From assembly GCA_013298595.1 (NCBI GenBank), contig JAAFIG010000016.1, positions 1-64,000 of the forward strand: a stretch of DNA of 64,000 nucleotides, given 5' to 3'. The translations under genes and the position numbers were made by a program. Under the pieces are notes generated by a model. It worked only from the letters and a program-made list of their open reading frames with translations, was not told the DNA's origin and did no database searches. Below, piece by piece: positions 1 to 64,000 of the stretch. The DNA is from Deinococcales bacterium (GTDB lineage: Bacteria; Deinococcota; Deinococci; Deinococcales; JAAFIG01). Numbering within the stretch: the first letter of the stretch is position 1; the number at the start of each line of letters is the position of its first letter.

Positions 1-233
1 ACTGTGGTTAAGTATGCTCCTTGCAATTCTGAGGTTGCACCACCCAGCTCGAGCACCACTTTAGTACCTGTTTTCTTCTCAAAGCGATCAAAAATCGGTT
101 GCAGCAAATCGGGGCGGAACGTTGAACCAGCAAAGACACGGATGGTACTGTTTTGTGCCCCAACTTGCGTAAAAGCCAACGCACCTGCTGCTAAACCAAT
201 ACTACCGAGCATAACCAATGTTTTTAATTTCAT
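1..233 (-). CDS. Extracellular solute-binding protein, 3' end missing (ABC importer)
   Basis: Only the first 77 residues are present; the gene runs off the left edge. The start is ATG with a GGAGG Shine-Dalgarno nearby. Residues 1-26 form a Sec signal peptide (two Lys, hydrophobic stretch, small residues before Gln-Asn). The mature part begins with a beta strand and the segment VFAGSTFRPDLLQPIFDRF, followed by KKTGTKV, the usual opening of periplasmic binding proteins of the molybdate/sulfate/iron class that mature to about 250-340 residues. The ligand cannot be judged from this fragment. It lies downstream of the succinate-semialdehyde dehydrogenase gene on the same strand, with its own ribosome site. 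Confidence 0.75.
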   Translation of the reverse strand, partial: MKLKTLVMLGSIGLAAGALAFTQVGAQNSTIRVFAGSTFRPDLLQPIFDRFEKKTGTKVVLELGGATSELQGAYLTT

Positions 234-327
234 GGGAATTCCTCCAGAGTTAATTTTGTTGAACTAAGTCAATATACCTTAATCAGCCCAGCCTGAGAAG
301 CTCTTCACGGCTAGGAACTGATAAAAG

Positions 328-1764
328 CTAAGGCAAGGTAATACTGATGTATTTTAGCTCGAGGAACGCTTCGAGTCCCCAGCGCCCACCTTCACGTCCA
401 ACACCTGAGTTTTTCATGCCACCAAAAGGAGCTTGTGGTGCCATGGCACTCGGCACACCATCGTTAACACCAACAATACCGTACTCTAAGGCTTCGGCAA
501 CACGGTAAGCCCGACCAATATCTCGAGTCCAAATATACGCCGCTAAGCCATACTCGGTGTTGTTCGCCCACGCCACAGCATCGGATTCACTCGAGAAATT
601 GACCAGCGGTGCAACAGGTCCAAAGGTTTCTTCTTCGAGTATCCGCATGGTGGTGTTGACACCAGATAAAATAGTGGGTTCAAAGAATAAGCCACCTGTA
701 GCATGTCCACCAGTGACAATTTTTGCCCCTTTGGACACCGCATCTTGCACATGGGCTTGGACTTTCTCGAGGGTAGCTTTGTCTACCAACGGTCCGATGG
801 TGGTATCGGCATCAAGTGGATTGCCTAGCTTAAAACCTTTGGCTTGTGCCGCAAAAGCATCTTCAAAACTCGAGGTGAGGTGATCGTGGACATAGACTCG
901 GTTGCTGGCAACGCATTGCTGCCCAGCATTACGGAATTTAGAATTGGAAACAGTTAAGGCTGCCGCAATCACATCAGCATCTTCAAAAACAATAAACGGA
1001 GCATGTCCACCCAACTCGAGTGACATGCGTTTAAGGGTTGGCGCAGCTTGGGCATACAATAATTTGCCAACTTCGGTACTACCCGTAAACGTAATTTTAC
1101 GCACTCGAGCATCGGACATCAAAACCTTAGAAACAGGCACAGGATCAGCACAAGGCAGCACTTGAAAGGTATCTTTAGGTGCCCCAGCTTCGAGCCAGAG
1201 TTTTGCTAATAACAAAGCAGTTAATGGTGATTGCTCGGCGGGTTTAAGAATCACCACACAACCCGCCGCCAATGCAGGCGCAACTTTACGTGCAATCATT
1301 GCCGCAGGAAAATTCCACGGCGTGACAGCGTAGACCACACCCACAGGTTCAGGACGACTAAATGCCCGTTTTTGCGGAAAACGACTGGGGATAATCTCAC
1401 CAGCAATTCGCTCCGCTTCAGCCGCATACCACTCGATAGCAGTGGCACTGTACCCACTTTCGCCTCGAGACTCGACCATTGGTTTTCCCATCTCGAGGGT
1501 CATGGCAGTAGCAATTTCTTCGGCGTGAACACGAATTAACTGTGCCCATTTTTGCATGATAATACTGCGTTCAAACCCAGAAGTGAGCTTAAAACTCGAG
1601 AAAGCAGTCACTGCTGCCTCGAGTGCTTCTTTAGCCTCGAACACACCACAATCAGCAATTTCGGCTACGGTCGAACCATCAAATGGGTTGATAACAGGAA
1701 AGGTTTTTTCAATGGTTTGCCAACCACCAGCGACAAGGGCTTGACGAGCAACAGTTTGATACAT
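328..1764 (-). CDS. gabD: NAD(P)-dependent succinate-semialdehyde dehydrogenase
   Basis: Aldehyde dehydrogenase superfamily protein of 478 residues, the normal length for the family. It should oxidise succinate semialdehyde to succinate, for example in GABA or polyamine breakdown. Visible motifs are TPWNFP in the cofactor-binding domain, FTGSTEVGK, the general-base glutamate in LELGGHAP, the catalytic cysteine in NAGQQCVASNR, and the conserved ETFGPV and PFGGMKNSG near the C-terminus. The start chosen is the internal ATG preceded by AAGGAG six bases upstream; the longer frame starting nine codons earlier lacks a ribosome site. The family is certain; substrate preference rests on overall similarity to GabD-type enzymes and could extend to other semialdehydes. 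Confidence 0.87.
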   Translation of the reverse strand: MYQTVARQALVAGGWQTIEKTFPVINPFDGSTVAEIADCGVFEAKEALEAAVTAFSSFKLTSGFERSIIMQKWAQLIRVHAEEIATAMTLEMGKPMVESRGESGYSATAIEWYAAEAERIAGEIIPSRFPQKRAFSRPEPVGVVYAVTPWNFPAAMIARKVAPALAAGCVVILKPAEQSPLTALLLAKLWLEAGAPKDTFQVLPCADPVPVSKVLMSDARVRKITFTGSTEVGKLLYAQAAPTLKRMSLELGGHAPFIVFEDADVIAAALTVSNSKFRNAGQQCVASNRVYVHDHLTSSFEDAFAAQAKGFKLGNPLDADTTIGPLVDKATLEKVQAHVQDAVSKGAKIVTGGHATGGLFFEPTILSGVNTTMRILEEETFGPVAPLVNFSSESDAVAWANNTEYGLAAYIWTRDIGRAYRVAEALEYGIVGVNDGVPSAMAPQAPFGGMKNSGVGREGGRWGLEAFLELKYISITLP

Positions 1765-1857
1765 ATTGAACTCCTTAACTTGATACACCAAGTCTACCTT
1801 TTTGTCACATAATTATGCGCTATGGCAATACAGCCATCGAGTTTGACTGGATTACAT

Positions 1858-1863
1858 TAGAAT
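1858..1863 (+). promoter_or_regulatory. -10 box of leaderless aroE
   Basis: TAGAAT ends 7 nt before the aroE ATG at 1871. No Shine-Dalgarno is visible, so transcription should begin at or next to the start codon. Confidence 0.55.
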
Positions 1864-1870
1864 CTCTATC

Positions 1871-2683: not shown

Positions 2684-2684
2684 C

Positions 2685-9379: not shown

Positions 9380-9421
9380 AAAAAGCCTAACACTCGAGTC
9401 AATAACAACACTCGAGGTTAG
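9380..9421 (-). terminator. Intrinsic terminator of the cupin gene, stem built from two CTCGAG copies
   Basis: Read on the minus strand, CTAACCTCGAG (9421-9411), a 12-nt loop, then CTCGAGTGTTAG (9398-9387) form a stem with one bulged base, followed by a T run (plus-strand A run 9380-9384). It lies 25 bp past the cupin stop codon. Confidence 0.5.
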
Positions 9422-13544: not shown

Positions 13545-14075
13545 ATGAATTACATTTTCAAAGCACTATTTATCTTAGCTTTTTTAACTGCTTGTGGACC
13601 ATCTTTATATCCTTCAGGGACTCGTGGTAACCCTGTACCAACTTCCCGAACTGTGGTAGCTAAAGTACAAAGTAATAACGAGACATTTGTACGAGTTGCT
13701 GGTCCAGCAGGTTTACTACCAGCCAGTATTTTTGCCCAAGAAGAATTGAAATTCACCAGTTATAACGAAATCGCTCCTGGTGCAACACGGCGCATTATCG
13801 TTAATTGGATTGAACAAGTTTCAACAAATGCACCAACCAATTGGAAATTAGAAATTGTGCGTCAAGAAGGTGTTGCTACAATTACAGAATCACGATCTAC
13901 TGGTACAGGCATCTCATATAAAGTTTCTTATACACTTGAATTAATTGTCAGTGTCAAAGTTCCAGCAGGTACACCTGCTGGTTCGTATCCAATCACCATG
14001 ACCATTGCAGAAATAGCGCGCAAACAAAATACTGGACCTGTATACCTGAATCTCGAAGTGCCAAAATCTGAGTAA
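13545..14075 (+). CDS. Lipoprotein, 176 residues, unknown function
   Basis: A classic lipoprotein signal (NYIFKALFILAFLTAC, lipobox LTAC at residue 17) is followed by a Pro/Ser-rich linker and one beta-sandwich-like domain with repeated Thr/Val strands (PGATRRIIVNWIEQV, YTLELIVSVKVPAGTPAGSY, PVYLNLEVP). The fold is probably an immunoglobulin-like NEW3-type module. The start has GAGGAG, part of a CTCGAGGAG run, 8 nt upstream. The gene holds no exact CTCGAG, unlike its neighbours, which suggests later arrival or faster change. A strong terminator follows. Confidence 0.65.
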   Translation: MNYIFKALFILAFLTACGPSLYPSGTRGNPVPTSRTVVAKVQSNNETFVRVAGPAGLLPASIFAQEELKFTSYNEIAPGATRRIIVNWIEQVSTNAPTNWKLEIVRQEGVATITESRSTGTGISYKVSYTLELIVSVKVPAGTPAGSYPITMTIAEIARKQNTGPVYLNLEVPKSE

Positions 14076-14085
14076 ACACATTAAC

Positions 14086-14118
14086 AAAAACTGCCGCGCA
14101 AGTTGCGCGGCAGTTTTT
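14086..14118. terminator. Bidirectional intrinsic terminator
   Basis: Perfect inverted repeat with arms AAAAACTGCCGCGCAA and TTGCGCGGCAGTTTTT around a single G (effective loop a few bases), with A and T runs at the ends. It lies between the convergent lipoprotein gene and lepA and can serve both. Confidence 0.92.
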
Positions 14119-14120
14119 AT

Positions 14121-15917
14121 TTATTCGTCACTCGAGAGAACTGCTAAGAAAGCTTCTTGTGGCACTTCGACTGTGCCAATGGATTTCATGCGTTTGCGTC
14201 CTTTTTTCTGCTTATCAAGCAGTTTCTTTTTACGGCTGATATCGCCACCGTAACATTTGGCAAGCACATCTTTGCGGTAGGCTTTAACCGTGGCTCGAGC
14301 AATAATTTTTGCACCAATAGCTGCTTGGATGGGTACTGGGAACATTTGTCTTGGGATGACATCGCTCATTTTGTCGACAATTTTTCTGCCCATAAATTCG
14401 GATTTATCGCGGTGGCAAATAATTGCCAGTGCATCGACAATTTCGTTGTTGACCAGAATACCAACCTTTACCAAATCGTTTTCTTGGTAGCCAATTTGTT
14501 CGTAATCCATACTGGCATAACCTCGAGACAAGCTTTTTAAGCGGTCATGGAAATCGTAGAGCACTTCACCAAAGGGTACTTCGTAGCGTAGTTCGACGCG
14601 TTTACCAACATAAACCATATCTTTCATGTTGCCGCGTTTCTCGACCAGTAATTGCATGGCACTACCAACGTATTCTTCGGGCAATATAACCGACAGTTTA
14701 ATGTATGGCTCTTCGATTTTGTCTACGCGATCTGGGGTTGGTAGTTGCGCTGGGTTTTGCATTTCAAAAACGGTACCATCGGTTTTGGTGACTCGGTAAA
14801 CCACACTTGGAGCTGTGGCAATTAAATCCAAATCAAATTCGCGCTCGAGGCGTTCTTGAACAACTTCGGCGTGAAGTAAGCCCAAAAACCCGCAACGAAA
14901 ACCAAAGCCGAGCGCTTCGGAAGTTTCAGGTTCAAAGTGCAGCGCGGCATCGTTGAGTTGTAATTTCTCGAGGGCTTCGCGCATTCGGGGATAATCCGCT
15001 GTTTCGGTGGGGTATAAACCACTAAAAACCACAGGTTGTGATGGTTTGAATCCGGGGAATGGCTCGAGGGTAGGGCGGGTTGCACCAGTCACGGTATCGC
15101 CCACTTGGGCATCGTGGATGTCTTTGATATTGGCAGTGAACCAACCCACTTCACCTGCGCTGAGGGTATCAGTTTTTTCTAAGGCTGGGCGGAAAACACC
15201 GACTTCATCTACGATGCACTCTTTTTCGGTGTTCCAGAATTTCACTCGGTCACCCGATTTTAAGCCTCCCTCGAGCACTCGGATGAACGGGATCACACCT
15301 TGGTAACTGGTGTAAACACTATCAAAAACAAGGGCTTTGAGTGGATTACTGGCTTCCCCTGCGGGTGCAGGGATACGTTCGATGATTGCCTCGAGAATTT
15401 CGACCACACCTTCGCCTGTTTTACCACTGGCAAATAAGGCGTTCTCGGCAGGAATACCAATCACTTCCTCGAGTTCCATCGCACTTTCCACTGGCATGGC
15501 ACTGGGTAAATCTATTTTATTGACGATTGGCACAATAACTAAGTTACTTTCGACTGCTAAGTACGCATTAACAATGGTTTGGGCTTCGACCCCTTGGCTA
15601 GCATCCACCAGCAACAGCACACCTTCGCAAGCGGCTAGGCTTCTCGAGACTTCATAATTGAAATCCACGTGTCCTGGGGTATCTATCAAGTGAAAAGTGT
15701 AATGTTCACCGTTTTTAGCTAAGTAATCTAAACGCACAGGGGTGGCTTTAATGGTGATACCACGTTCGCGTTCCAAGTCGAGGGTATCGAGGGTTTGTTC
15801 GCGTTTATCACGAGCTGTCATTGCGCCACAAATCTCGAGGATTCGGTCTGCTAAGGTGCTTTTACCATGGTCTACATGGGCAATGATTGAAAAATTTCGG
15901 ATGTTAGTGTTGCTCAC
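14121..15917 (-). CDS. lepA: Elongation factor 4 (LepA), ribosome-associated GTPase
   Basis: 598 residues, full length. G1 is [14 protein letters not shown], switch [14 protein letters not shown]3 DTPGHVDF, G4 NKIDLPSA and G5 ASGKTGEG. Then come the EF-G-like domains II, III and V ([28 protein letters not shown] is LepA-specific) and the basic C-terminal domain ending [20 protein letters not shown]. The start is GTG. It back-translocates or remodels stalled ribosomes and aids translation under ionic or cold stress. The stop lies 3 bp from the shared terminator. Confidence 0.97.
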
Positions 15918-15991
15918 AATAGTTGTTAGTGTATCAGGTGTTCACAGGGGCGTTTGCTGCTTTTGTGAGAAACCAACTCACATATCGGTTT

Positions 15992-15997
15992 TAGCCT
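15992..15997 (+). promoter_or_regulatory. -10 box of the GGR-like gene
   Basis: TAGCCT, then AGGTCT (6 nt), then the ATG at 16004. Confidence 0.45.
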
Positions 15998-16003
15998 AGG
16001 TCT

Positions 16004-17158
16004 ATGGAAATGTTTGATATGGCAGTGATTGGTGCTGGTTTAGCAGGACTCGAGGTTACTCGAGCGCTTAGCCAACGTGGTTTGAGTGTACTTTTGGTGG
16101 ATCGTAAAGCTGATATTGCACGTCATGTACATACCACTGGTATTTTTGTTCGTAAAACTCTCGAGGATTTTGCCATACCCGATTTTTGTCTAGGCGAAGC
16201 TGTTAAACATGTCAATTTGTACTCCCCTGCTCGGCAAGTACTGGCACTCAGCAGCCCTCATGATGAATTCCGAGTTGGGCGTATGGGCAAGTTATATGGG
16301 CATTTACTCGAGCAAGGCTTAAATGCAGGCGCAGTATTTTCCAATGCAACACATTTGCGCGGCATCAGCAAATCCAGCCGAGGCAGTGTTTTACATCTCG
16401 AGCGTCATGGGCAAAGTATGCCAACCCAAGCACGTTTTGTCATTGGGGCTGATGGCGCTGTCTCGAAGGTGGCGCAAGAGTTACGGCTCGAGCAAAATAA
16501 AGAATTTATTATTGGGGTCGAAGATGTGCTAGAAGGCGTGCCACTGGTTGGCGAACCCTGTTTTCATGTGTATATCGAACCCAAACTTGCTCCTGGTTAT
16601 ATTGCATGGGTGGTTCATGATGGCGAACACGTTCATCTGGGTACAGGCGGTTACGCAGCTCAATTCGATGCGGCTCAGGCACTCGAGGTTTTTCGGGCAA
16701 GTGTCAGTACGCAATTTGATTTTTCTAAGGCTAAACGGCTCGAGCGGCGTGGTGGCAGAATTCCTGTGGGTGGAGTTCTAAAAAACATTGTGCATTCCAG
16801 AGGTTTACTGCTTGGTGACGCAGCAGGTGCAGTCAGCCCATTAACCGCTGGTGGGCTTGACCCTGCTATTCGACTTGCCAATTTTGCTGCCCATATTCTC
16901 GAGCGGCACCTTGGTGGTGATGCAACAGCTCTTGAAACATATAACGGCAGCGCTTGGCGAACCCGATTCACTTCTCGGTTATGGATGCGACGCTTGTTAA
17001 GCAGCGTCACACAACCACAATTACTCGAGCTTGGTTTTGCTGCCCTAAAACTCGAGCCTTTTAAATCTGTGGCATGGCATGTGTTTTTTGGACGAGGTGG
17101 CAGTTTCCCTGAACTCGAGCCAAAAACAAATTTAGCTATTGCCCATCAACGCTCTTGA
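16004..17158 (+). CDS. FAD-dependent oxidoreductase of the geranylgeranyl-reductase type
   Basis: 384 residues. The N-terminal dinucleotide fold has AVIGAGLAGLEVTRALSQRG and the Asp/Arg pair VDRK; the second FAD contact is FVIGADGAVSKVA and the third is GLLLGDAAGAVSPLTAGGLDPA, the arrangement of GGR/PHBH-group flavoproteins. Possible roles are saturation of isoprenoid chains (menaquinone or carotenoid side chains) or hydroxylation; the substrate is not fixed. The C-terminal 60 residues are helical and positively charged, possibly membrane-facing. The next gene (PBP2) begins about 35 bp downstream. Confidence 0.8.
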   Translation: MEMFDMAVIGAGLAGLEVTRALSQRGLSVLLVDRKADIARHVHTTGIFVRKTLEDFAIPDFCLGEAVKHVNLYSPARQVLALSSPHDEFRVGRMGKLYGHLLEQGLNAGAVFSNATHLRGISKSSRGSVLHLERHGQSMPTQARFVIGADGAVSKVAQELRLEQNKEFIIGVEDVLEGVPLVGEPCFHVYIEPKLAPGYIAWVVHDGEHVHLGTGGYAAQFDAAQALEVFRASVSTQFDFSKAKRLERRGGRIPVGGVLKNIVHSRGLLLGDAAGAVSPLTAGGLDPAIRLANFAAHILERHLGGDATALETYNGSAWRTRFTSRLWMRRLLSSVTQPQLLELGFAALKLEPFKSVAWHVFFGRGGSFPELEPKTNLAIAHQRS

Positions 17159-17192
17159 CTTCTCATATAGCTCTGTCAAAATACGAGTTGCT

Positions 17193-24373: not shown

Positions 24374-24989
24374 CTAAAATGTTTGTGTGTTACCGTAAAA
24401 CGCACTCGAGCCAAAGTTACGAACAGCTCCATAAAAAATTAAGGCATCACCTTTGCAAGCCACTTTTAATGGTGCTTGATACCATTTACTCCAACGCCGA
24501 TCACAACGCAAATACATATTCGATAAGAAACGTTCATCTATGCTTTTTCGCACTGTTTCATTCCGACCAGCCGCGTATCTCGAGACATTACGATAGCCAA
24601 AGTCGTGTTGACGGCAAGCAGTGTCATCAAAAATCACAGGTGGTGTTGGACCTGAGCAACCATCATCAGACCAATCTGGACCAGCGGTTTGACGATAATA
24701 ACTCGAGAGATACGTTTCGTAATTAATACTAGTTGCAACAAACAAATGTATCTGCGTAATTAGGGTAACGAATCGTGGTTTGCAATTGCAATTGCGAGGC
24801 TGTTACCTCGAGATTGGCATTAACTTCGGCACCAAGTGCTTCGATTTGTGCTTCTGATAAAGCCTTGATTTGCTCATCACTCAAGTTTGGAATATCCTCG
24901 AGTGATGTATTGATTGGTGCTTGGATACTGGTACAACCAACAAATGCTGTCAGTGCTAATGCCGCAAACCCCGCAATCAATTTTTTCAT
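24374..24989 (-). pseudogene. Phospholipase A2-like lipoprotein split by a 4-bp duplication
   Basis: Two overlapping minus-strand frames make one protein. The first (24729-24989) has a lipoprotein signal (KKLIAGFAALALTAFVGC), a helical linker with NLSDEQIKALSEAQIEAL, and breaks off after YPNYADTFVCCN. The second (from about 24745 to 24374) resumes with FVATSINYETYL and carries a prokaryotic phospholipase A2 domain: DDGCSGP, then the catalytic ACRQHDFGYRN with its His-Asp pair, and later cysteines in MYLRCDRRW and VACKGDAL. The junction contains CAAA twice in tandem (plus strand 24739-24746); removing one copy restores ADTFVATSIN in a single frame of about 200 residues. It is therefore a recent inactivation, a slippage-switched gene, or an assembly error. 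Confidence 0.8.
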
Positions 24990-25031
24990 AATGTATGTTA
25001 CTCGTTTTTGGTCAGGGGTATATCAGGAATT

Positions 25032-25058
25032 AAAAAAACCTGCCCTAAAGCAGGTTTT
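25032..25058 (-). terminator. Intrinsic terminator of tRNA-Pro
   Basis: Stem AAAACCTGC/GCAGGTTTT with a 6-nt loop; on the minus strand it is followed by a T run (plus-strand A run 25032-25038). It lies 4 bp past the tRNA CCA end. Confidence 0.9.
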
Positions 25059-25062
25059 CTTG

Positions 25063-25139
25063 TGGTCGGGGACGAGGGATTTGAACCCCCGACCCTTTGG
25101 TCCCAAACCAAATGCGCTACCAGACTGCGCTAGTCCCCG
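25063..25139 (-). tRNA. tRNA-Pro, anticodon TGG
   Basis: A 77-nt cloverleaf on the minus strand: acceptor arm CGGGGAC pairs with GTCCCCG, followed by discriminator A and an encoded CCA (25065-25063). The D-loop contains GGTAGCGC. The anticodon stem TTTGG/CCAAA holds the loop TTTGGGA, so the anticodon is TGG (reads CCN proline codons). The T-arm contains GGTTCAAAT. A strong hairpin terminator follows at once, so it is probably a single-gene transcript. Confidence 0.97.
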
Positions 25140-25316
25140 AACTGAGTACAACTTGGGATGCCATCTCTGGCGGCGAGGAGTATACACAACCTTTTGCATT
25201 ATGGCAACCCCCAATGAATGTGATTTGTCACATTCGCATTTTTCACCTATTATTTTGATAATTGGTGACTAAAATTATGCGTCTCAAGTTTTACAAGAAA
25301 ATACGCAGAATTTGTT

Positions 25317-25322
25317 TAGAAT
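25317..25322 (+). promoter_or_regulatory. -10 box of the Big_2-like lipoprotein gene
   Basis: TAGAAT, then CCGAA (5 nt), then a TTG start at 25328; this start gives a textbook lipoprotein signal. Confidence 0.4.
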
Positions 25323-25327
25323 CCGAA

Positions 25328-25633: not shown

Positions 25634-25665
25634 ATTGGTGATAAATACCCTCATCAATCTCGAGG

Positions 25666-48591: not shown

Positions 48592-49725
48592 TTACTTATG
48601 AGCATCTTGTAACGAAGTCCAAATATGTTCGGCAATGCGGTACACCGCTTCTGGTTCGGCAAGTTTTTGCACTGCTGCCTGCATTGCCTCAAGTTTACCT
48701 GGAGTACTGAGTACTTGCTCGAGGGTAGCTGCAACTTTTTGTGCCCCTTCGGCATATAAACCAGCGCCTTGTTGAACAACATATTCGGCGTTCGGCGATT
48801 CTTGGTATTTGATTGCACCATTGAGAATCATCGGGGTACCAAGTGCTGCTGCTTCAACAATGGTGGCAGGTCCAGCTTTAGAAATCAGTACATCCGCTGC
48901 CCGTAAAAACAGATCAAAATCGGTAGTGAAACCATAAATGATCGTTTTTTTACGCCATTGTATGGTCTCGAGTGATTCTTTCAAGGCAACGTTTTTACCC
49001 GCCAGTACCACCAGCTGGGCATTGGCTACACTGGCATCAATGGCTTTGGCTGTCTCGAGCATTGGTCCCATGCCGTCGCCACCGCCTGCAAGAATAACAA
49101 TTTTGGCATCCTGATCCCAACCAAGTTTGGCTCGAGCTGCGGCTTGGGTTAAGTGCATTTTAGAAAATCTTGGGTGCATCACAGGACCCGTGAGAATCAG
49201 TTTACTAGCATCTATACCCAGTTCTAATCCTCGAGTTAATGCTGGTGGTACTGGAACCAAGGTTTTATCAGCTCGGTTGTCGTACCATAACGAACTGGGC
49301 TTGGCATAATCGGTAATAACAGTTAAGAAAGGAATTTGCCGTTTTTGTTTACGTAGAGCATCCACACTTGGGCGCACAAATGCGCCATGCACACAAACAA
49401 CAATATCAGCTGGGTGACGCTGGTACAAATACTTAATTTTAGGAAAAACCACTTTTGAATAAACTCGATGCCCTAAACCTTTACGAAAAACTCGGTCGGT
49501 CAACCAGAATTGGGCTTCGTAACTGGCAGGATGGTTGTTGTACCAGATGCCATAGGTTTTCGGTAAGGTATTGAGTGGAAAAGGGGCAAAATCACGAAAC
49601 ATATCAACCAATTCGTACTGTAATTGATTAGGGTATTTTTCATCCAAGGCTGCCGTTATTGCCCGACAAGCTGCCCGATGTCCCCCACCTGTATCGGACA
49701 TCAAGAACAAAACCCGTTTCGCCAT
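48592..49725 (-). CDS. MGDG-synthase-like lipid glycosyltransferase (GT28), copy A
   Basis: 377 residues. The MGDG-synthase N-terminal fold opens FLMSDTGGGHRAACRAI, then a helix-rich acceptor-binding part; the C-terminal GT-B half has ILAGGGDGMGPMLETAK, YGFTTDFDLFLRAADVLISKAG and EAAALGTPMILN, the UDP-sugar site of the GT28/MurG group. It should glycosylate diacylglycerol or a glycolipid at the inner membrane surface. The ATG follows TAAACT by 7 nt. Copy B at 50836-51960 is a close paralogue; long blocks near the C-terminus are identical. Confidence 0.87.
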   Translation of the reverse strand: MAKRVLFLMSDTGGGHRAACRAITAALDEKYPNQLQYELVDMFRDFAPFPLNTLPKTYGIWYNNHPASYEAQFWLTDRVFRKGLGHRVYSKVVFPKIKYLYQRHPADIVVCVHGAFVRPSVDALRKQKRQIPFLTVITDYAKPSSLWYDNRADKTLVPVPPALTRGLELGIDASKLILTGPVMHPRFSKMHLTQAAARAKLGWDQDAKIVILAGGGDGMGPMLETAKAIDASVANAQLVVLAGKNVALKESLETIQWRKKTIIYGFTTDFDLFLRAADVLISKAGPATIVEAAALGTPMILNGAIKYQESPNAEYVVQQGAGLYAEGAQKVAATLEQVLSTPGKLEAMQAAVQKLAEPEAVYRIAEHIWTSLQDAHK

Positions 49726-49732
49726 AGACAGC

Positions 49733-49738
49733 AGTTTA
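49733..49738 (-). promoter_or_regulatory. -10 box of glycosyltransferase copy A
   Basis: TAAACT on the minus strand, then GCTGTCT (7 nt), then the ATG at 49725. Confidence 0.5.
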
Positions 49739-49773
49739 ACCTAAAATGTATTCGGACTCGAGGGCAAAAACAG

Positions 49774-50802
49774 CTATTTTTCTGCTGGTTTTGTCTGATT
49801 TTTTTCTGCCGATGCACGTAGTAACGCCATACCGCCAATTAATGGACCAATGAAAATATAAAAATAAAACGATAAGAAACGCCACATCAACACCAAAGGA
49901 GTACGGGCTTCACTTGAGATACCAACAGCAGCAAAAACCTTCCCAAGGGCAAATTCAAAGTACCCACCACCACCAGGGGTTGGAGCGGCAAAACTCGAGA
50001 AAACCACTAAACTTTGGGCTGCCATGACTGCTACATGATCAAAATTTGGTAAACCAAGCGCCCACGCCACCACATTAAAAGCAGCAAAGTGAAAAATCCA
50101 ACCAAATCCATTCATCACATGTAACAAAATTTGGGTTGGAATAGTCATGCGCCGCAAACTCGAGACTTCTTCTTCCGTACGTTGCACAAAAGCAAAAGCA
50201 CCACGGCGAAAACGTTGTAAAAAGCGAAGACTAAAAATAGACCAAACTATTTTTGATAAAAAAGCTGACCCATAAGCAATACCCCAAGCTACTGCTAACA
50301 TCAAACCAGCACCACCAAAACCCAGTAATGCCACCAACCAGTAACCAATACTGATAATGTGTTTTGCCTCGAGAATAAACAGTGCTACAGGCAACGACCA
50401 AGCATAAAACACCAAATCTAAAACCACGCTATACACAGCAATAGCAGTGGCTTTATTGGCATCCATAAAACGGCTGAGATACCAACCCAACCCAAAGCTT
50501 GCACCCGTGGCAGCAGGTGTAACAGCGGCACTGAATAAACCCAGCAAACTGGCTTGAGTGCCGCGCCAAACCGATATTTTCTTACCTTCTGGAAATTGGG
50601 CTGCTAAAATTTTCACCCGAAAACCCATGCACAACCACCATGCCATAATCACGGGAATCAGGCTGGCAGCACCAATGGGTTGAATCTGAATAGTGGCAGT
50701 AAATTCAGATAAATTGAATTTCTCACCTGTCAGTAGCAGCAATGCCACAGCTGCAATAGAAAAAGCAACAGAAATAAGAATCGTACGAATGGGACTACTC
50801 AC
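49774..50802 (-). CDS. UPF0104/lysylphosphatidylglycerol-synthase-flippase-like membrane protein, copy A
   Basis: 342 residues with about eight transmembrane helices, the layout of the UPF0104 family and of the flippase half of MprF. Typical blocks: WWLCMGFRVKILA, GLFSAAVTPAATGASFGLGWYLSR, VYSVVLDLVFYAWSLPVALF, FGWIFHFAAFNVVAWALG and FAAPTPGGGGYFEFALGKVF. It probably moves a glycolipid or lipid intermediate across the membrane. The GTG start has no clear ribosome site. It lies between the two MGDG-synthase-like genes on the same strand. Confidence 0.82.
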   Translation of the reverse strand: MSSPIRTILISVAFSIAAVALLLLTGEKFNLSEFTATIQIQPIGAASLIPVIMAWWLCMGFRVKILAAQFPEGKKISVWRGTQASLLGLFSAAVTPAATGASFGLGWYLSRFMDANKATAIAVYSVVLDLVFYAWSLPVALFILEAKHIISIGYWLVALLGFGGAGLMLAVAWGIAYGSAFLSKIVWSIFSLRFLQRFRRGAFAFVQRTEEEVSSLRRMTIPTQILLHVMNGFGWIFHFAAFNVVAWALGLPNFDHVAVMAAQSLVVFSSFAAPTPGGGGYFEFALGKVFAAVGISSEARTPLVLMWRFLSFYFYIFIGPLIGGMALLRASAEKNQTKPAEK

Positions 50803-50835
50803 ACATACCAGTCTGCCACATCTCGAGCTTAGAAG

Positions 50836-51960
50836 TCACGGGGTTAAACTCCTCATGATTTCATCAGCAATTCGGTATACAGCATCAGGCACTGCTAGTT
50901 TTTTGACTGCAACCTCTAAAGCCTCGAGTTTACCTGGGGTACTAAGCACTTGCTGGAGCGCATCTGCCACATTCTCTGCACCTTCGGCATACAAACCAGC
51001 GCCTTGTTGAACAACATATTCGGCGTTCGGCGATTCTTGGTATTTGATTGCACCGTTAAGAATCATCGGGGTACCAAGGGCTGCTGCTTCAGTAATCGTG
51101 GCAGGTCCAGCTTTAGAAATCAGTACATCCGCTGCCCGTAAAAACAAATCAAAATCTGGAGTGAAACCATACACCAACGTTTTTTTACGCCATTGCACCG
51201 CCTCGAGCGAAGCTTGCAGAGCCACATTCTTACCCGCTAAAACAACCAATTGCGCGTTAGGAACACCAGCATCAATAGCGATAGCTGTCTCGAGAATCGG
51301 ACCCATGCCATCGCCACCACCAACCAAGACAGCAATTTTTGCCTCCTGATCCCAACCAAGTTGTGCTCGGGCTTGGTGTTTTGTCATCGTCATCTTAGAA
51401 AATCTGGGGTGCATGACTGGACCTGTCAGAATCAGTTTAGCTGGGTCTATGCCTAACTCAAGTCCGCGTTGATAGGCTGGTTCAACTGGCACTAAGGTTT
51501 TATCAGCTTTGCTTGCATACCAAAGAGACGTTGGTAAAGCGTAATCTGTGACCACCGTAATAAATGGTATTTGTTGTTCTTGTTGTCGTAAAACTTCGAC
51601 ACTTGGACGAACAAATACACTGTGTACACAGACTACTATATCTGCTTGGTGTTGCTGATAAAGATGTTTAATTTTTTGAAATAAATACTTTGAGTAAAAA
51701 CGATCTCCAATTCCTGAACGAAATACTCGATCAGTAATCCAAAATTGGGCAGCGTAACTCCACGGATAACGATTAACCCAAGTACCATAGGTATGTGGCA
51801 AAGTACTAAAAGGGTATGGGGTGTAATGCTGCCACATATCTACCAGTTCGGCTTCAAAAACCCCTGGATAGCACTCATCCAGTGCTGCCATTATGGCAGT
51901 ACAAGCCGCCCGATGCCCGCCACCTGTATCGGACATCAAAAACAGCAAGCGCTTCGCCAT
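50836..51960 (-). CDS. MGDG-synthase-like lipid glycosyltransferase (GT28), copy B
   Basis: 374 residues, the same domain order as copy A: FLMSDTGGGHRAACTAI, the acceptor half, VLVGGGDGMGPILETAI and YGFTPDFDLFLRAADVLISKAG. It differs from copy A mainly in the N-terminal acceptor region (WQHYTPYPFSTLPHTYGTW against FRDFAPFPLNTLPKTYGIW), which suggests a different lipid acceptor or sequential sugar transfer. The ATG follows TAGAAT by 6 nt. It diverges from the third GT28 gene. Confidence 0.87.
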   Translation of the reverse strand: MAKRLLFLMSDTGGGHRAACTAIMAALDECYPGVFEAELVDMWQHYTPYPFSTLPHTYGTWVNRYPWSYAAQFWITDRVFRSGIGDRFYSKYLFQKIKHLYQQHQADIVVCVHSVFVRPSVEVLRQQEQQIPFITVVTDYALPTSLWYASKADKTLVPVEPAYQRGLELGIDPAKLILTGPVMHPRFSKMTMTKHQARAQLGWDQEAKIAVLVGGGDGMGPILETAIAIDAGVPNAQLVVLAGKNVALQASLEAVQWRKKTLVYGFTPDFDLFLRAADVLISKAGPATITEAAALGTPMILNGAIKYQESPNAEYVVQQGAGLYAEGAENVADALQQVLSTPGKLEALEVAVKKLAVPDAVYRIADEIMRSLTP

Positions 51961-51966
51961 AATTTA

Positions 51967-51972
51967 ATTCTA
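51967..51972 (-). promoter_or_regulatory. -10 box of glycosyltransferase copy B
   Basis: TAGAAT on the minus strand, then TAAATT (6 nt), then the ATG at 51960. Confidence 0.5.
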
Positions 51973-52030
51973 CCCTTAAACACGTCTTGCAAGTGCATTG
52001 TATTTTGCTGTGCGAATTGATTGTCCCATG

Positions 52031-52036
52031 TATACT
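52031..52036 (+). promoter_or_regulatory. -10 box of the third GT28 gene
   Basis: TATACT, then GGTCATC (7 nt), then the GTG start at 52044. Confidence 0.55.
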
Positions 52037-52043
52037 GGTCATC

Positions 52044-53198
52044 GTGGCTAAACCGCGTATTCTCTTGGCAATGATTACCGTAGGCAATGGGCATAAAGCT
52101 CCTGCCGACGCAATAAAATCAGGTCTCGAGCGGTTATATCCGAATCAATTTGAAATAGATGTGCTCGATTTTACGGCGGCTGTCGGCGATTTAGCTTTTG
52201 ATAAACGCCACAAAGATTCGTGGAATTGGATGCTCAAATACCCAAGTTTTGCTTATTGGGGTCAAGTGATCATGGATTCAATTGTGCCTGTTAAATTTAC
52301 ACGCTTTGTACAAAAAAAAATGTTACGCCAACATGCAGCACACGCCACCACTTTTATCAAAGAAAAACAATACGCACTTGTGGTAGCTACCCATTTTTTT
52401 ACCATCCAAGCCATCGCTTTAGCCAAAGACGAATTTGACTTAAAAATACCATTGGTTGGTTTTGATGCAGACCCTTTTGATGCCCATGCAATGTGGGTTG
52501 AACCAAGTGCCGATGAGATCATTGTTGCCAGTCAGCAAGCCAAAGAAAAATTGATTCAAAAAACCATGCCAGCCAACAAAATCAGTGTTTATAATTACCC
52601 TTTTGCCACACAATTTACCGAAAACCTGCCAAGCCAAGCAGCAGCTCGAGCCGAATTAAACCTCGAAAATACCATGCTTACTATTTTACAATCCGCTGGC
52701 GGCGAAGGTATTGGTGGGCAACTCGAGCAATCAGTTGAATCTGTTTTTCAAGCCAATTTACCAGTGCAATACATCGTCATTTGTGGGCGAAATACCGAGT
52801 TACTCGAGCGTTTAGAGGGTATGGCTGCACGCTTTCCCAATTCAAAAGTTCGTTTTGTAGTCAAAGGATTTATCGAAAATATGCCAACTTGGATCATTGC
52901 AAGCGATTTAATTCTTGGTAAAGCTGGAGCTGCGAGTACCATGGAAGCTCTGATCCTTGGAAAACCCATTTTCCATGTTAGTTACGTTGCTTATAACGAT
53001 CGTGCCAATATGGAATGGTGTGTCAAGCAAGGTGTTAGCGAATTTATCCCAAAACCAGAGCAATTACTCGAAGTTTTACAAAGATTTCTCAAGCATCCAG
53101 AGCAATTAACAATGTTACACGCTCGAGTACGTGAATTAAATATTCAATCTGGAACCCTTGATATTGCTAAGCATTTGGTCGAGAGGTATTTGCAATAA
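52044..53198 (+). CDS. Third MGDG-synthase-like glycosyltransferase (GT28)
   Basis: 384 residues, clearly diverged from copies A and B. It opens ILLAMITVGNGHKAPADAI, has a lipid-contacting region (WNWMLKYPSFAYWGQVIMD) and a C-terminal donor half: ILQSAGGEGIGGQLEQS, FVVKGFIENMPTWIIASDLILGKAG and EALILGKPIFHV. In this superfamily the last block binds the nucleotide sugar. The GTG at 52044 has TATACT 7 nt upstream; the longer open frame starts with hydrophobic residues unlike family members. Its stop overlaps the next start (TAATG), so it is coupled to a GT2 gene. Confidence 0.82.
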   Translation: MAKPRILLAMITVGNGHKAPADAIKSGLERLYPNQFEIDVLDFTAAVGDLAFDKRHKDSWNWMLKYPSFAYWGQVIMDSIVPVKFTRFVQKKMLRQHAAHATTFIKEKQYALVVATHFFTIQAIALAKDEFDLKIPLVGFDADPFDAHAMWVEPSADEIIVASQQAKEKLIQKTMPANKISVYNYPFATQFTENLPSQAAARAELNLENTMLTILQSAGGEGIGGQLEQSVESVFQANLPVQYIVICGRNTELLERLEGMAARFPNSKVRFVVKGFIENMPTWIIASDLILGKAGAASTMEALILGKPIFHVSYVAYNDRANMEWCVKQGVSEFIPKPEQLLEVLQRFLKHPEQLTMLHARVRELNIQSGTLDIAKHLVERYLQ

Positions 53199-54304
53199 TG
53201 GTGTGGTTTCTGACATTACCTTGGTTGCTGCTGAGTGTTCATACATTAATAAATGCCGTACTCTTCAAGCGCTTAGCTTCATTTCCGCGAGCAAAAAAAC
53301 AGCCTTTGGTTACGATTTTAGTACCCGCTCGTAATGAAGAAATTTCTTTACCTGTGCTGTTACCAACATTATTAGCGCAAAATTACCCACAACTCGAGAT
53401 TATTATCTTAAATGACCACTCAACTGATGGTACACAAACCATTCTCGAGTCCATTTCTGATAGGCGTTTGCGGGTGATACAGGGTGGCGAATTACAAGCA
53501 GGATGGCGCGGCAAAGCCAATGCTTGCGATCAACTTGCCAAAGTTGCCACTGGCGAGATTCTCATTTTTACTGATGCTGATACGATATGGCATCCTGATG
53601 CCACCCAACACATTGTAGCTGCTTTTGAGCACAGCCAAGCCGAGGTACTTTCGGCTTGGTCAGAACAAATCCTGACCAGTCGTTTCTCGAGATGGTTACA
53701 GCCGTTTATCGCTTGGTCAACAGTTGCCCTGATGCCAATGCCACTAGCTGCTGATTCAAGATTCCCTGATATCGTTTCGGCGAATGGGCAATTATTTGCG
53801 TATACCAAAGCAGCGTACAATAAATTTGGTGGTTTTGCCCGAGTAAAATCTTCGGTACTCGAGGATATAGATTGTGCTAAATTACTCAAAAAAGAAGGCT
53901 ATAACTACCGTTTCTTCAATGCCTTAGGGTCAATCAAATGCAAAATGTACAACAACGATGCCGAAGTTATAGATGGGTTTTCTCGAGGTTCATTTGCAGT
54001 ACTCAACTACCAACCAGTATCTGTTGTTGGAACAGCGATTTTATTTTTATGGTTATTTATTGCACCAATCATTTGGTTTTTACTGGCATTGCTTAGTGGT
54101 GCCGATATTGGGCTACCAGCCCTCACCGTAGCCTTGATGATTATTAGCCGAGCAAGAACCGATCTCGAGTTTGGTTTCCCAATTCAATTATCGTTGACAA
54201 CACCAATATCAGCAATCTGCTGGACGTATATCGCTTTTTTGTCATGGTATCGCTATGCCACTGGGAGAATCAGTTGGAAGGGACGAACTTACGATATGCG
54301 TTAA
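53198..54304 (+). CDS. Family 2 glycosyltransferase, membrane-bound, copy 1
   Basis: 368 residues. An N-terminal helix (FLTLPWLLLSVHTLINAVLF) precedes the GT-A domain: VTILVPARNEEISLPVLLP, IIILNDHSTDGT, AGWRGKANACDQLA, FTDADTIWHPDA (DxD), SANGQLFAYTKAAYNKFGG and SVLEDIDCAKLLKKEG. Two or three transmembrane helices follow, and the end is WKGRTYDMR. The shape is that of glycosyltransferases acting on carotenoids, hopanoids or glycerolipids. It is coupled to the GT28 gene upstream. The stop shares TTAA with the convergent UPF0104 gene. Confidence 0.85.
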   Translation: MVWFLTLPWLLLSVHTLINAVLFKRLASFPRAKKQPLVTILVPARNEEISLPVLLPTLLAQNYPQLEIIILNDHSTDGTQTILESISDRRLRVIQGGELQAGWRGKANACDQLAKVATGEILIFTDADTIWHPDATQHIVAAFEHSQAEVLSAWSEQILTSRFSRWLQPFIAWSTVALMPMPLAADSRFPDIVSANGQLFAYTKAAYNKFGGFARVKSSVLEDIDCAKLLKKEGYNYRFFNALGSIKCKMYNNDAEVIDGFSRGSFAVLNYQPVSVVGTAILFLWLFIAPIIWFLLALLSGADIGLPALTVALMIISRARTDLEFGFPIQLSLTTPISAICWTYIAFLSWYRYATGRISWKGRTYDMR

Positions 54305-55320
54305 GCTTTTTTTTCGGCTGCACGCAATAATGCTGCCCCACCGATAAATGGACCAATGATGATATACAAAAAATATGATAAAAAACGCCACATCAATGCC
54401 AATGGCACTCGAGCTTCGGCTGGAATATCAAGTAACCCAAAGAGTTTTGGTAATGCTACTTCAAAATACCCTGTACCACCTGGTGTTGGCACTAACATCG
54501 AAACAGATACGACTAAGCTTTGAAAAGCCAGAATCGCACCATGATCAAAGTTTGGAATGCCTAATGCCCAGCCCAGCACATTAAAAGCACCAAAATGGAA
54601 GAGGAAATTGAGGAAATTAACAAAGTGAATCAGCAATTGCCGTTGCCACGGTAAATCGCGTAAGGCGGCAATAACATTACCTGTGCGTTGTACAAAAGCA
54701 TAGGCTCGAGCGCGGCGAGCCTTTAAAAAGCCTAAACTAAAGATATTCCACACCAGCTTTGCTAGTAAATCCACCCGAAACGACAACATCCATGCTGCTG
54801 TTAATAAGATGCCACTCAGCACATAAACTAGGTAATCCAGTGCTGGGATACCAATCAAAGTGCCAACATCTATACCTAACGCAAACCGCAACACCAAAAA
54901 TGAAGCAGGTAAAGACCAAGCATAAAACACTAAATCGAGCACTAAGCTATACACTGCAATAGCTGTTGCTGATTTTGCTTCTAAATAGCGACTCAAGTAC
55001 CAGCCAAGCCCAAAACTCATACCCGTTGCTGATGGTGTAACAGCGGCTGAGAACAGCGCAAGTAGCGATGCCATAATGCCACGACCAACTGTTATCTGAT
55101 CACCATTTGGCATGGTAGTTGCCAAGAGTCGAATCCGAATACCCAGCAAAATCCACCAAGCAACCAAAGATGCTAGTAAAATTGGTATTTTCCACCAATC
55201 AATTTTTGTTAATTGTGCAAAAGCAACAAAATCAATTTTTTCGCCTGTGAGAAGTAAAACACCAAGCGCCACTGCTAAAAAAAATATGGAAATACCAACT
55301 ATCCGAATCGCACTGTTCAC
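54301..55320 (-). CDS. UPF0104/flippase-like membrane protein, copy B
   Basis: 339 residues with about eight transmembrane helices, a paralogue of the protein at 49774-50802. Shared blocks: WWILLGIRIRLLA, LALFSAAVTPSATGMSFGLGWYLSR, VYSLVLDLVFYAWSLPASFL, FLFHFGAFNVLGWALGIPNFDHG and VPTPGGTGYFEVALPKLFG. Again it sits among lipid glycosyltransferases, so each pathway branch seems to have its own transporter-like partner. The GTG at 55320 has GAGG 7 nt upstream; another GTG two codons earlier is too close to that site. Confidence 0.82.
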   Translation of the reverse strand: MNSAIRIVGISIFFLAVALGVLLLTGEKIDFVAFAQLTKIDWWKIPILLASLVAWWILLGIRIRLLATTMPNGDQITVGRGIMASLLALFSAAVTPSATGMSFGLGWYLSRYLEAKSATAIAVYSLVLDLVFYAWSLPASFLVLRFALGIDVGTLIGIPALDYLVYVLSGILLTAAWMLSFRVDLLAKLVWNIFSLGFLKARRARAYAFVQRTGNVIAALRDLPWQRQLLIHFVNFLNFLFHFGAFNVLGWALGIPNFDHGAILAFQSLVVSVSMLVPTPGGTGYFEVALPKLFGLLDIPAEARVPLALMWRFLSYFLYIIIGPFIGGAALLRAAEKKA

Positions 55321-55445
55321 ACGCACACCTCTGCAAGGGAAATCTGCCTACGCCAAGGCATGATACCCTGTTTTATGCCAATCAATCTCGAGATGGTCGT
55401 CAGCAAAGCCACATGGTTTTCACGTACAATTCAACTTACTTCACA

Positions 55446-56576
55446 ATGATACTTTTCTTAACGCTGACTTTACCGTGGCTACTTTTATGCTTGCACACGT
55501 GGTTAAACGCATTGTTGTTTCAGCGTTTAGCCCATTTCAAAAAACCCGCTCCACATCAACCAAAAGTTTCATTACTCGTGCCAGCCCGTAACGAAGAAAA
55601 AACTTTGCCACTGCTGATGCCTTCGCTGTTAGCACAAAACTATCCAAATCTCGAAATTTTAGTCTTAAACGATAATTCCGAAGATGCCACCCAAAGTATT
55701 CTCGAGGGTTTTAGCGACCCCCGTTTGAAATTAATGATGGGTGGACCACTACCTGAAGGTTGGCGCGGTAAACCAAACGCTTGTGAACAACTAGCACATG
55801 CCTCGAGTGGCGAGATTTTGTTATTCACCGATGCTGATACCGTCTGGCACAAGGATGCCACGCAACTGATGGTCAATGCCTTACATCATCATCGGGCAGA
55901 CGCAGTTTCAACCTGGCCTGAACAAATTCTGGTCGGTCGAATTTCGCATTTGATCCAACCCTTTTTGGCTTGGTCTATTCTGGCGTTAATGCCAATGGTG
56001 ATGATTAACTCGCGGCGCTTTCCGAATATGAACCCAGCTTCAGGGCAATTATTTGCTTACAAGCGCGAATCGTATTTTAAATTTGGTGGATTTGCTCGAG
56101 TCAAAACCTCGATTCTCGAGGATATGGAATGCGCTAAATTACTGAAAAAAGATGGTTTTCGTTATAAATTCTTAAATGGTCTTGGTGTGGTGCAATGCAA
56201 AATGTACAACAACGACCAAGAAGTGTTAGATGGTTTCTCGAGGAATTTTTTTGCTGTAGTGAATTACCAGATTTTGCCATTTATTGCAGCCGCACTCGGG
56301 TTTTTCTGGGTTTTTGTTTTTCCGATTATTTGGTTTGTACTGGCTTTATTTGGTGTTCCTATTTTCGGCGAAGCCAATTGGCAATTAGCGCTGCTAACCA
56401 TTGTTCTGATGCTTTTATCTACGGCTCGTTCGTATGCCGAATTTGGTAATCCAATAGCTCTGGCTTTGTTGGTACCACTTTCGGCTTTAACATGGATTCG
56501 CATTGCCGCTTTATCGTGGTACCGATTTGTCAAAGGGCAAGTGACGTGGAAAGGCAGAACCTATAATTTACGTTAA
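55446..56576 (+). CDS. Family 2 glycosyltransferase, membrane-bound, copy 2
   Basis: 376 residues, paralogous to copy 1: an N-terminal helix (LTLTLPWLLLCLHTWLNALLF), then VSLLVPARNEEKTLPLLMP, ILVLNDNSEDAT, EGWRGKPNACEQLA, FTDADTVWHKDA (DxD), SGQLFAYKRESYFKFGG, ILEDMECAKLLKKDG, C-terminal helices and the end WKGRTYNLR. The ATG at 55446 aligns its N-terminus with copy 1. It diverges from the UPF0104 copy B gene, sharing a 125-bp upstream region. Confidence 0.85.
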   Translation: MILFLTLTLPWLLLCLHTWLNALLFQRLAHFKKPAPHQPKVSLLVPARNEEKTLPLLMPSLLAQNYPNLEILVLNDNSEDATQSILEGFSDPRLKLMMGGPLPEGWRGKPNACEQLAHASSGEILLFTDADTVWHKDATQLMVNALHHHRADAVSTWPEQILVGRISHLIQPFLAWSILALMPMVMINSRRFPNMNPASGQLFAYKRESYFKFGGFARVKTSILEDMECAKLLKKDGFRYKFLNGLGVVQCKMYNNDQEVLDGFSRNFFAVVNYQILPFIAAALGFFWVFVFPIIWFVLALFGVPIFGEANWQLALLTIVLMLLSTARSYAEFGNPIALALLVPLSALTWIRIAALSWYRFVKGQVTWKGRTYNLR

Positions 56577-61770: not shown

Positions 61771-61826
61771 CAGCCAAATTCAATTTCAGCACGGGAGGGG
61801 AAAGGACTTTCGCAGGAATTCTATTT

Positions 61827-62951: not shown

Positions 62952-63016
62952 GGTTCACCTCTAAACGACTAGAATATCAGCAGTATAACGGTTTCTCGAG
63001 TCTTACGTTAGGGTGC

Positions 63017-63022
63017 TAGAAT
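63017..63022 (+). promoter_or_regulatory. -10 box of the SCP2-like gene
   Basis: TAGAAT, then CTGGT (5 nt), then the ATG at 63028. Confidence 0.5.
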
Positions 63023-63027
63023 CTGGT

Positions 63028-63453
63028 ATGGAAAAACTTTTATTGTTTAGTCCCGAATGGGCTGAACGCACTGCCAGCATTATTGCTGCCAGTACTGGTT
63101 ATCAAAAAGCCGCTGCCACATGGGAAGGTGCCATGATTTTTACCCTACAAGCCGATAGTGGCTTAGGTATCCCCGAGAATCGCTCGGTTTTTTTTGATTT
63201 ACATCGAGGTGAATGTCGTGCTGGGCGGGTTGCTAGTCCTGCTGATCTCGAGCAAGCCACCTATATTGTCAGTGCTGATGCGTTTACTTGGCAACAAGTG
63301 ATGACAGGTAAGCTCGAACCAATTGCTGGTTTATTACGCGGCAAACTCAAACTGGCTCGAGGCAATATGGCAGTCTTAGCGCGGTATGTTTTAGCCGCCA
63401 AAGAATTAGTCAAATGCGCTGGTGATGTGCCAACCATTTTTCCTGGTGAATGA
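63028..63453 (+). CDS. SCP2-like sterol/lipid-carrier domain protein
   Basis: 141 residues. The SCP2 fold pattern is visible: a helix near the N-terminus, strands TWEGAMIFTLQ, SVFFDLHRGECR and YIVSADAFTWQQVMTGKLEPIAGLLRGKLKLARGNMAVLA (the family's gate helix and GKLK-GN signature). It binds hydrophobic ligands such as acyl-CoA. The ATG at 63028 follows TAGAAT by 5 nt; a GTG five codons earlier lies before the box. The stop overlaps the start of the downstream alcohol dehydrogenase. Confidence 0.8.
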   Translation: MEKLLLFSPEWAERTASIIAASTGYQKAAATWEGAMIFTLQADSGLGIPENRSVFFDLHRGECRAGRVASPADLEQATYIVSADAFTWQQVMTGKLEPIAGLLRGKLKLARGNMAVLARYVLAAKELVKCAGDVPTIFPGE

Positions 63454-64000
63454 TGAAAGCCGTTACTTTCCAAGATATTGGTAGTGTGGCTGTGCTCGAG
63501 ACTCCAGAGCCGACTTTAGAATTGCCATCTGATGTGATTGTTCGTGTGACACGTTGCGCTATTTGTGGTTCGGATTTACATTTGTACCACGGCGAAATCC
63601 CAATGATGCCAGGCGATACTTGTGGGCATGAATTCACAGGTATCATCGAAGATACTGGCTCGAGTGTTGGTAAATTCAAACGTGGTGACCGAGTAGTTGG
63701 CACTTTTCATACCGCTTGTGGTTCGTGCAATGCCTGTCAACGCGGCGAGTACCATTTATGCGCCAGTGCAGCTGTTTATGGCTTTGGACCAATTTATGGT
63801 GCACTTAATGGTTCGCAAGCCGAATATGCCCGAGTACCTTTTGCCGATATCAATTTACGCCACATCCCAGACAAACTTGAGGATGAAGCTGCCTTATTTG
63901 CTGGTGACATCCTAACAACTGCTTACGGTGCAGCTCGTAATGCCAATATCAGCGCAGGCAGCAGCGTTGCCATTATTGGTTGTGGACCCGTTGGTATCAT
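63453..64000 (+). CDS. Zinc-dependent alcohol dehydrogenase-family protein, 3' end missing
   Basis: The first 182 residues are visible. MDR-family signatures: catalytic-zinc Cys in CAICGSDLHLYHG, the GHEFTG (His, Glu), the structural-zinc loop CGSCNACQRGEYHLC (four Cys), and the start of the cofactor domain SVAIIGCGPVGI. It should oxidise an alcohol or polyol with NAD(P). The start is ATG at 63453 or the adjacent in-frame ATG at 63450, both overlapping the SCP2-like stop. The gene continues past the right edge. Confidence 0.88.
   Translation, partial: MKAVTFQDIGSVAVLETPEPTLELPSDVIVRVTRCAICGSDLHLYHGEIPMMPGDTCGHEFTGIIEDTGSSVGKFKRGDRVVGTFHTACGSCNACQRGEYHLCASAAVYGFGPIYGALNGSQAEYARVPFADINLRHIPDKLEDEAALFAGDILTTAYGAARNANISAGSSVAIIGCGPVGI

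Follow-up and report, generated by a model that had tools for sequence, protein, structure and literature searches.

CTCGAG is a highly iterated palindrome (HIP) near saturation in the genome of a bacterium from the order Deinococcales, where a force on DNA acts at the level of the word, with one genome-wide strength and on each site independently. The window, i.e., the whole 64,000-bp stretch of DNA that was analyzed (positions 1–64000), contains 437 copies at a mean spacing of 146 bp, compared to 12.9 predicted from base composition and 6.7 expected from dinucleotide-preserving shuffles (maximum of 12 in 100 shuffles). The original prediction had described an excess that started with 14 copies within the first 2,000 bases (positions 48–1951), continued through most of the window, and affected genes of every kind. 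The count of 14 is exact, the density is kept in every 4-kb block (15–43 copies, with no block lacking the word), and the excess proved to be real and larger than claimed. Copies are located both in genes, including approximately ten in the LepA-like GTPase gene (positions 14121–15917, reverse strand) that was the best-conserved gene in the orthologue comparison, and between genes, as exemplified by a close pair of intergenic copies 18 bp apart (positions 9393–9416). The longest CTCGAG-free stretch spans 836 bp from copy to neighboring copy (positions 51289–52125), and a tRNA-Pro gene (positions 25063–25139, reverse strand) lies in the next longest one (24897 to 25659).

The same pattern extends to the whole genome (4,582,226 bases in 68 contigs), in which 27,159 copies were counted, or one per 169 bp, compared to 15 copies of the control GAGCTC, which has the letters of CTCGAG reversed. 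In a 464-kb genome sample, CTCGAG exceeds the prediction of a motif-masked order-2 Markov model 72-fold (2,719 copies observed versus 38 expected). The runner-up among over-represented palindromic hexamers in this sample reaches only 1.7-fold, and each of the remaining palindromic hexamers has at most 47 copies in the window. A count close to the Markov expectation, which the original prediction had named as a refuting outcome, was thus not obtained, and the proposed comparison with other hexamers also favored the claimed excess. The bases flanking CTCGAG in the sample are almost unconstrained, indicating that the word consists here of six bases; the longer CCTCGAGG is avoided (0.29 of expectation in the 464-kb sample).

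Codon-pair or amino acid bias, by which Leu-Glu would simply be spelled with favored codons, could draw on the observation that 58% of coding copies in the sample (1,378 of 2,394) are in frame as Leu-Glu. However, CTCGAG accounts for 1,375 of the 2,072 Leu-Glu pairs (66%), where codon use elsewhere predicts approximately 31, and the synonymous TTAGAA, for which such a bias should produce an equal excess, is depleted fourfold (140 versus 588 expected). Moreover, filling extends to the remaining two frames, in which 62% of [SPTA]R[VADEG] sites and 36% of xS[SR] sites read CTCGAG, and the intergenic density matches the overall density (6.2 and 5.9 copies per kb, respectively). The Leu-Glu, frame, and intergenic counts refute this explanation, which had been the second refuting condition of the original prediction and retains a negligible probability.

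To compare contexts, the strength of the force was expressed as the log-odds shift from the neutral codon or base expectation for Leu-Glu, frame 1, frame 2, and intergenic sites. In that order, the values are 4.8, 3.7, 3.8, and 3.9 for the window's genome; 4.0, 3.9, 3.4, and 4.0 for genome G003; and 3.0, 4.0, 3.0, and 3.9 for genome G002. Weaker but roughly uniform values were obtained for G008 (2.6, 2.4, 1.6, and 2.3) and for G025 from the Thermaceae (1.9, 2.7, 1.6, and 2.0), and values of about zero for G004 (−0.4, 0.5, −1.9, and 0.8). The similarity of the log odds in all four contexts indicates that the force reads DNA and not codons, and the lineages differ mainly in its strength (approximately 4 in the window's family, 2 in G008 and G025, and 0 in G004).

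Neighboring copies have little influence on each other at longer range. Beyond 60 bp, the three coding classes of the window's genome have slopes of −0.11 ± 0.14, −0.08 ± 0.19, and −0.11 ± 0.16 for fill as a function of how far away the next copy lies; the slopes are equally flat in two relatives, and all nine tests fall within one standard error of zero. Hence, there is no sign of a preferred density or spacing, and regular spacing, which might be needed for the nucleoid packing that the original prediction had offered as an example, was not found. In a same-genus comparison restricted to conserved amino acids, Leu-Glu (frame 0) copies were kept in 83% of cases versus 30% for control hexamers, so that the proposed check on synonymous sites of orthologues showed retention above that of other words. 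The 83% differs little from the fill rate of the respective species and hence gives no evidence of site-specific constraint. A 2 × 2 test at conserved Leu-Glu pairs within the genus detected site memory (odds ratio, 4.3; p = 0.01), while memory relative to the window's genome was undetectable with approximately 45 Leu-Glu pairs each in G002 (odds ratio, 2.1; p = 0.35) and G003 (odds ratio, 0.33; p = 0.41). In these small samples beyond the genus, the state of a site is close to independent once the protein is given. Taken together, the uniform strength, lack of neighbor dependence, and scarcity of site memory indicate a pressure on DNA that acts on each site separately. TTR-GAR states are far less depleted in G002 than in the other genomes, which suggests that G002 is not at the same equilibrium.

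The iteration of CTCGAG is reflected in proteins and mRNAs. Leu-Glu is over-represented 2.28-fold in the proteins of the window's genome, versus 0.98 for Glu-Leu; in G004, which has no CTCGAG excess, the respective values are 1.10 and 1.13. Fill declines within approximately 45 bp of another copy, to one third at the closest range. Genic pair density is 0.20–0.32 of expectation at 6–18 bp (G000 and G003), whereas pooled intergenic pair density is 0.7 of expectation at 6–12 bp, 1.0 at 12–18 bp, and 0.9 and 1.2 thereafter. A protein footprint or steric exclusion was dismissed as the cause because the drop is confined to genes. Since, in addition, two copies of the palindrome can pair, avoidance of mRNA hairpins is the better reading of the close-pair deficit; the predicted CUCGAG-loop-CUCGAG hairpin with a 6-bp stem has an energy of −7.4 kcal/mol at loop 6 and −3.9 kcal/mol at loop 84.

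All four genomes from the window's family (f1) contain 26,619–28,178 copies, and two genomes from family f2 equal or exceed them in density (21,868 copies in 3.5 Mb and 14,690 copies in 1.9 Mb). Family f2 also includes G008, with an intermediate level, and G004, which either lost the excess or never had it. Calidithermus chliarophilus, with 16,080 copies in 4.7 Mb, falls in family f5, which identifies this family as the Thermaceae. Most other families of the order have a roughly 2- to 10-fold excess in 20-kb samples, with 36-fold in G070, and all 20 of the 20 copies in the 20-kb sample of G007 (probably Thermus) read CCTCGAGG. Five genomes of Natrialbaceae archaea contain 13,652–17,165 copies each, possibly an independent case, with fill figures that are biased upward because the loci were picked for dense CTCGAG. 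The survey of other bacteria provides a lower bound, its carriers being those known among the matches listed. Virus contigs dense in CTCGAG were set aside, as they mostly represent high-GC, local or repeat-rich clusters with no link to this lineage. The earlier statement that no CTCGAG system has been described in this lineage agrees with a literature search, which turned up no account of iterated CTCGAG or CCTCGAGG words for Thermus, Meiothermus, or Deinococcus; the lineage, however, was drawn too narrowly, as weaker forms occur through the order and the Natrialbaceae are rich in the word as well.

Near variants of the word are retained in a graded manner. In the 464-kb sample, the YYYRRR-preserving transition variants (CTTGAG, CTCGAA, and CCCGAG) occur at 2.0–2.6 times the masked-background expectation, versus 0.5–1.3 times for transversion variants. 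Within Leu-Glu pairs, CTTGAG is at 2.2 times and CTCGAA at 1.0 times expectation (464-kb sample), and transversion variants together with most distant states are at 0.1–0.3 times. The ratchet proposed by Elhai (2015; PMC4390886), in which one-step variants are drained into the motif, is therefore not what was observed, the transition variants being retained. Other palindromic hexamers are avoided in family f1 (0.31–0.48 of expectation, versus 1.00 in G004), and the CTCGAG excess tracks this avoidance across 23 genomes (Spearman coefficient, −0.68; p = 0.0004; uncorrected for relatedness and including several samples of 10–30 kb). In the window's genome, CGATCG is avoided (11 versus 104 expected in 464 kb), and GGCC is nearly gone, with 16 copies in 464 kb (0.01 of expectation) and a single copy in the window. 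Such word avoidance is usually caused by restriction pressure, and the size of the GGCC and palindrome avoidance indicates that short words in this genome are subject to pressures of comparable magnitude.

For a matching methyltransferase, which the original prediction had named as a possible cause, candidates from Pfam families PF07669, PF01555, PF00145, PF02086, and PF02384 were extracted from 22 genomes and compared. None from these five families, with specificities not assigned and assemblies 91–94% complete, occurs in all four genomes of f1, leaving the proposed enzyme unsupported. The XhoI nuclease family PF04555 had no match in 29 genomes, nor in control genomes. Several methyltransferases of the window's genome appear to belong to restriction-modification units: one adjoins a NotI-like nuclease, another directly follows a 307-aa frame, and a third, 1,241 aa in length, immediately follows a further large frame. 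The most widely shared enzyme, a C5 (m5C) methylase (L120) resembling M.HhaI and M.HaeIII, is present only in G000, G001, G012, and G062, and not in G002 or G003. Also rejected were the approximately 500-aa N6 methylases of G002, G003, G015, and G059, which adjoin frames judged by eye to resemble type I specificity subunits, and weak PF01555 matches, which are unrelated proteins. Any responsible enzyme may be divergent or uncatalogued, or it may be missing from the incomplete assemblies. Restriction-modification and other probably foreign genes carry CTCGAG at a reduced density of 1.2 to 5.8 per kb; that genes of foreign type already carry the word was counted on the side of biased repair or conversion.

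The claim that such a palindrome implies active spread or strong selection is borne out genome-wide, and the combination of uniform strength, site independence, little memory, and costs that are nevertheless paid points to a word-specific bias in fixation. Sequence-biased DNA repair or gene conversion is tentatively favored as its source, at slightly below even chances. A CTCGAG-specific factor, such as a modification, nicking, or mismatch-processing protein, would encounter a one-step variant and tilt fixation toward the intact palindrome, so that the copies would be side products of a DNA transaction and would not require any function of their own. Set against biased repair or conversion are the lack of a candidate enzyme in the search and the depletion of variants that a one-step ratchet predicts, in place of which CTTGAG and CTCGAA are retained; to save the ratchet, graded recognition or a mutational feed must account for them. 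Also entered on that side are the approximately 45 Leu-Glu pairs on which each independence test in G002 and G003 rests and the TTR-GAR states of G002 with the different equilibrium that they suggest. A more specific version is a rather speculative possibility: a methylation-independent, previously undescribed motif drive, in which a repair or recombination factor of the order would impose a fixation bias of approximately 4 everywhere, rewriting synonymous codons, intergenic DNA, and approximately 1% of protein residue pairs, possibly with a separate origin in the Natrialbaceae.

The main rival to biased repair or conversion, conceivable but on the unlikely side, is additive selection, whereby an abundant nucleoid, replication, or repair protein would bind CTCGAG, with each site adding fitness and near-cognates contributing in part. 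Graded affinity of this kind predicts the retention of transition over transversion variants, and the near-absence of GGCC shows that pressures of similar size do act on short words; a chromosome-structure role was reportedly also proposed for HIP1 by Xu, Lawrence, and Durand in 2018. In contrast, the benefit shows no saturation with local density beyond 60 bp, the short-range exclusion occurs in genes only (0.2–0.3, versus 0.7 and 1.0 in intergenic DNA) and thus resembles hairpins and not a footprint, and site-specific conservation beyond the genus is scant. Because biased conversion and uniform (additive) selection share one equilibrium, the present data cannot separate them. Biased uptake or recombination is also able to propagate a motif across a genome, proteins included, but a DNA uptake or Chi-like signal is very improbable here: such signals act per kilobase-scale fragment, so that the gain from an extra copy should drop at one copy per 169 bp, and no drop was seen; to our knowledge, no known uptake or Chi motif is palindromic. 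A solitary CTCGAG methyltransferase that makes and maintains sites together with methyl-directed mismatch repair, as in the model of Elhai, appears improbable, though less so. This explanation has precedents in the alternative HIPs of cyanobacteria, which go with a matching methyltransferase (PMC4390886), and in Nocardia, which has a solitary methyltransferase for CTCGAG (PMC4752239). Yet the model saturates near one site per 1,000 nucleotides (PMC4390886, section 3.4), far below the density observed here. The absence of a shared enzyme from the five Pfam families, the restriction-modification character that several methyltransferases appear to have, and the undepleted one-transition variants likewise argue against it.

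HIP1 has remained without explanation for decades. The CTCGAG case is denser, comes from another phylum, and includes relatives at strengths of approximately 4, 2, and 0; since the weaker carriers in the Thermaceae include cultured species, the question becomes testable through differences among strong, weak, and noncarriers. If biased repair is the cause, short words can saturate a genome without a function of their own, and a bias at the DNA level sets part of the proteome. If selection is the cause, the protein that uses these tens of thousands of sites in each genome awaits discovery.

Among known systems, very-short-patch repair and CCWGG enrichment in Escherichia coli illustrate how a repair enzyme can shift short-word frequencies genome-wide. 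Similar repair does not fit CTCGAG, as it would make CTTGAG, the C-to-T variant, rarer, and CTTGAG is instead in excess. The DNA uptake sequences of Neisseria and Pasteurellaceae are also spread motifs that reach into proteins, but they are longer, not palindromic, and present at approximately one per kb, and the flat fill curve found here is unlike a per-fragment signal. The solitary methyltransferase of Nocardia (Blow et al. 2016; PMC4752239) recognizes the same word and has no partner nuclease; its motif is clustered near dnaA, whereas CTCGAG is distributed genome-wide here, where no such enzyme was found. HIP1 of cyanobacteria, GCGATCGC, occurs at 300–2,700 copies per Mb (Elhai 2015; PMC4390886). 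HIP1 and the alternative HIPs resemble the present case as GC-rich palindromes in many-fold genome-wide excess, located within and between genes without a codon-bias cause, retained at synonymous positions above other words, shared with related species (here, four f1 and two equally dense f2 genomes), lost in some relatives, and part of longer words in others. The differences are a six-base core, CTCGAG instead of GCGATCGC, a host from the Deinococcales and hence another phylum, approximately 5,900 copies per Mb, far above one per kb, undepleted one-transition variants, and no matching methyltransferase found. Thus, the original description of a HIP1-like iterated palindrome with a different core holds: HIP1 is the closest known kind, and CTCGAG is a denser, six-base variant of it in another phylum.

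A general avoidance of palindromic hexamers except CTCGAG emerges from samples of the window's genome, of the three other genomes of its family f1 (G001, G002, and G003), of the f2 relatives G004 (no CTCGAG excess, and such hexamers at 1.00 of expectation) and G008 (intermediate), and of G025, a weaker carrier from the Thermaceae; examples are TTCGAA (3 versus 200) and TGGCCA (2 versus 270). Across 23 genomes, CTCGAG excess tracks palindromic-hexamer avoidance, with a Spearman coefficient of -0.68 that is uncorrected for relatedness. The tetramer GGCC is nearly gone from the 64-kb window, where a single copy occurs at position 55915, and numbers 16 in the 464 kb sampled from the same genome, an observed/expected ratio (o/e) of 0.01. 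The ratio is likewise 0.01 in G001 and G003, and stands at 0.51 in G002, 0.81 in the further relative G012, and 1.12 in G004. In the window's genome, avoidance extends to CCGG (0.12). This genome encodes a restriction-modification pair, in which a NotI-like nuclease (PF12183) adjoins an N6/N4 methylase (L105:1399-3245, contig C34).

Within the family, G002 departs from the remaining genomes in its much weaker depletion of TTG/TTA-Glu pairs; most of its CTN-Glu pairs are depleted, and its CTCGAG density between genes, 11 per kb, is above the genic density (samples L506-L515, L141, and L469). Perhaps G002 represents a younger or differently balanced state.

CTCGAG also forms the outer arms of two intergenic hairpins in the window's genome, both copies of CTCGAGCCTCCCAAAAGGAGGCTCGAG (L487:272-298 and L487:1019-1045), which are apparently terminators or a small motif-based repeat.

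Separately, judged by eye, window positions 48592-56576 hold repeated paralogues laid out as a duplicated block. Three of them are MurG/MGDG-synthase-like glycosyltransferases, two of which are near-identical; membrane proteins resembling flippases and family-2 glycosyltransferases are present as two each.

Beyond these relatives, all 20 CTCGAG copies in a 20-kb sample (L146) of G007, probably a Thermus, lie within CCTCGAGG, where 1.5 would be expected; the window's genome avoids this context (0.29). Five archaeal genomes of the Natrialbaceae (L182, L250, L257, L276, and L184) carry 13,652 to 17,165 CTCGAG copies each, or 3 to 4.4 per kb, and are poor in the control word GAGCTC, possibly reflecting an independent archaeal iterated palindrome.
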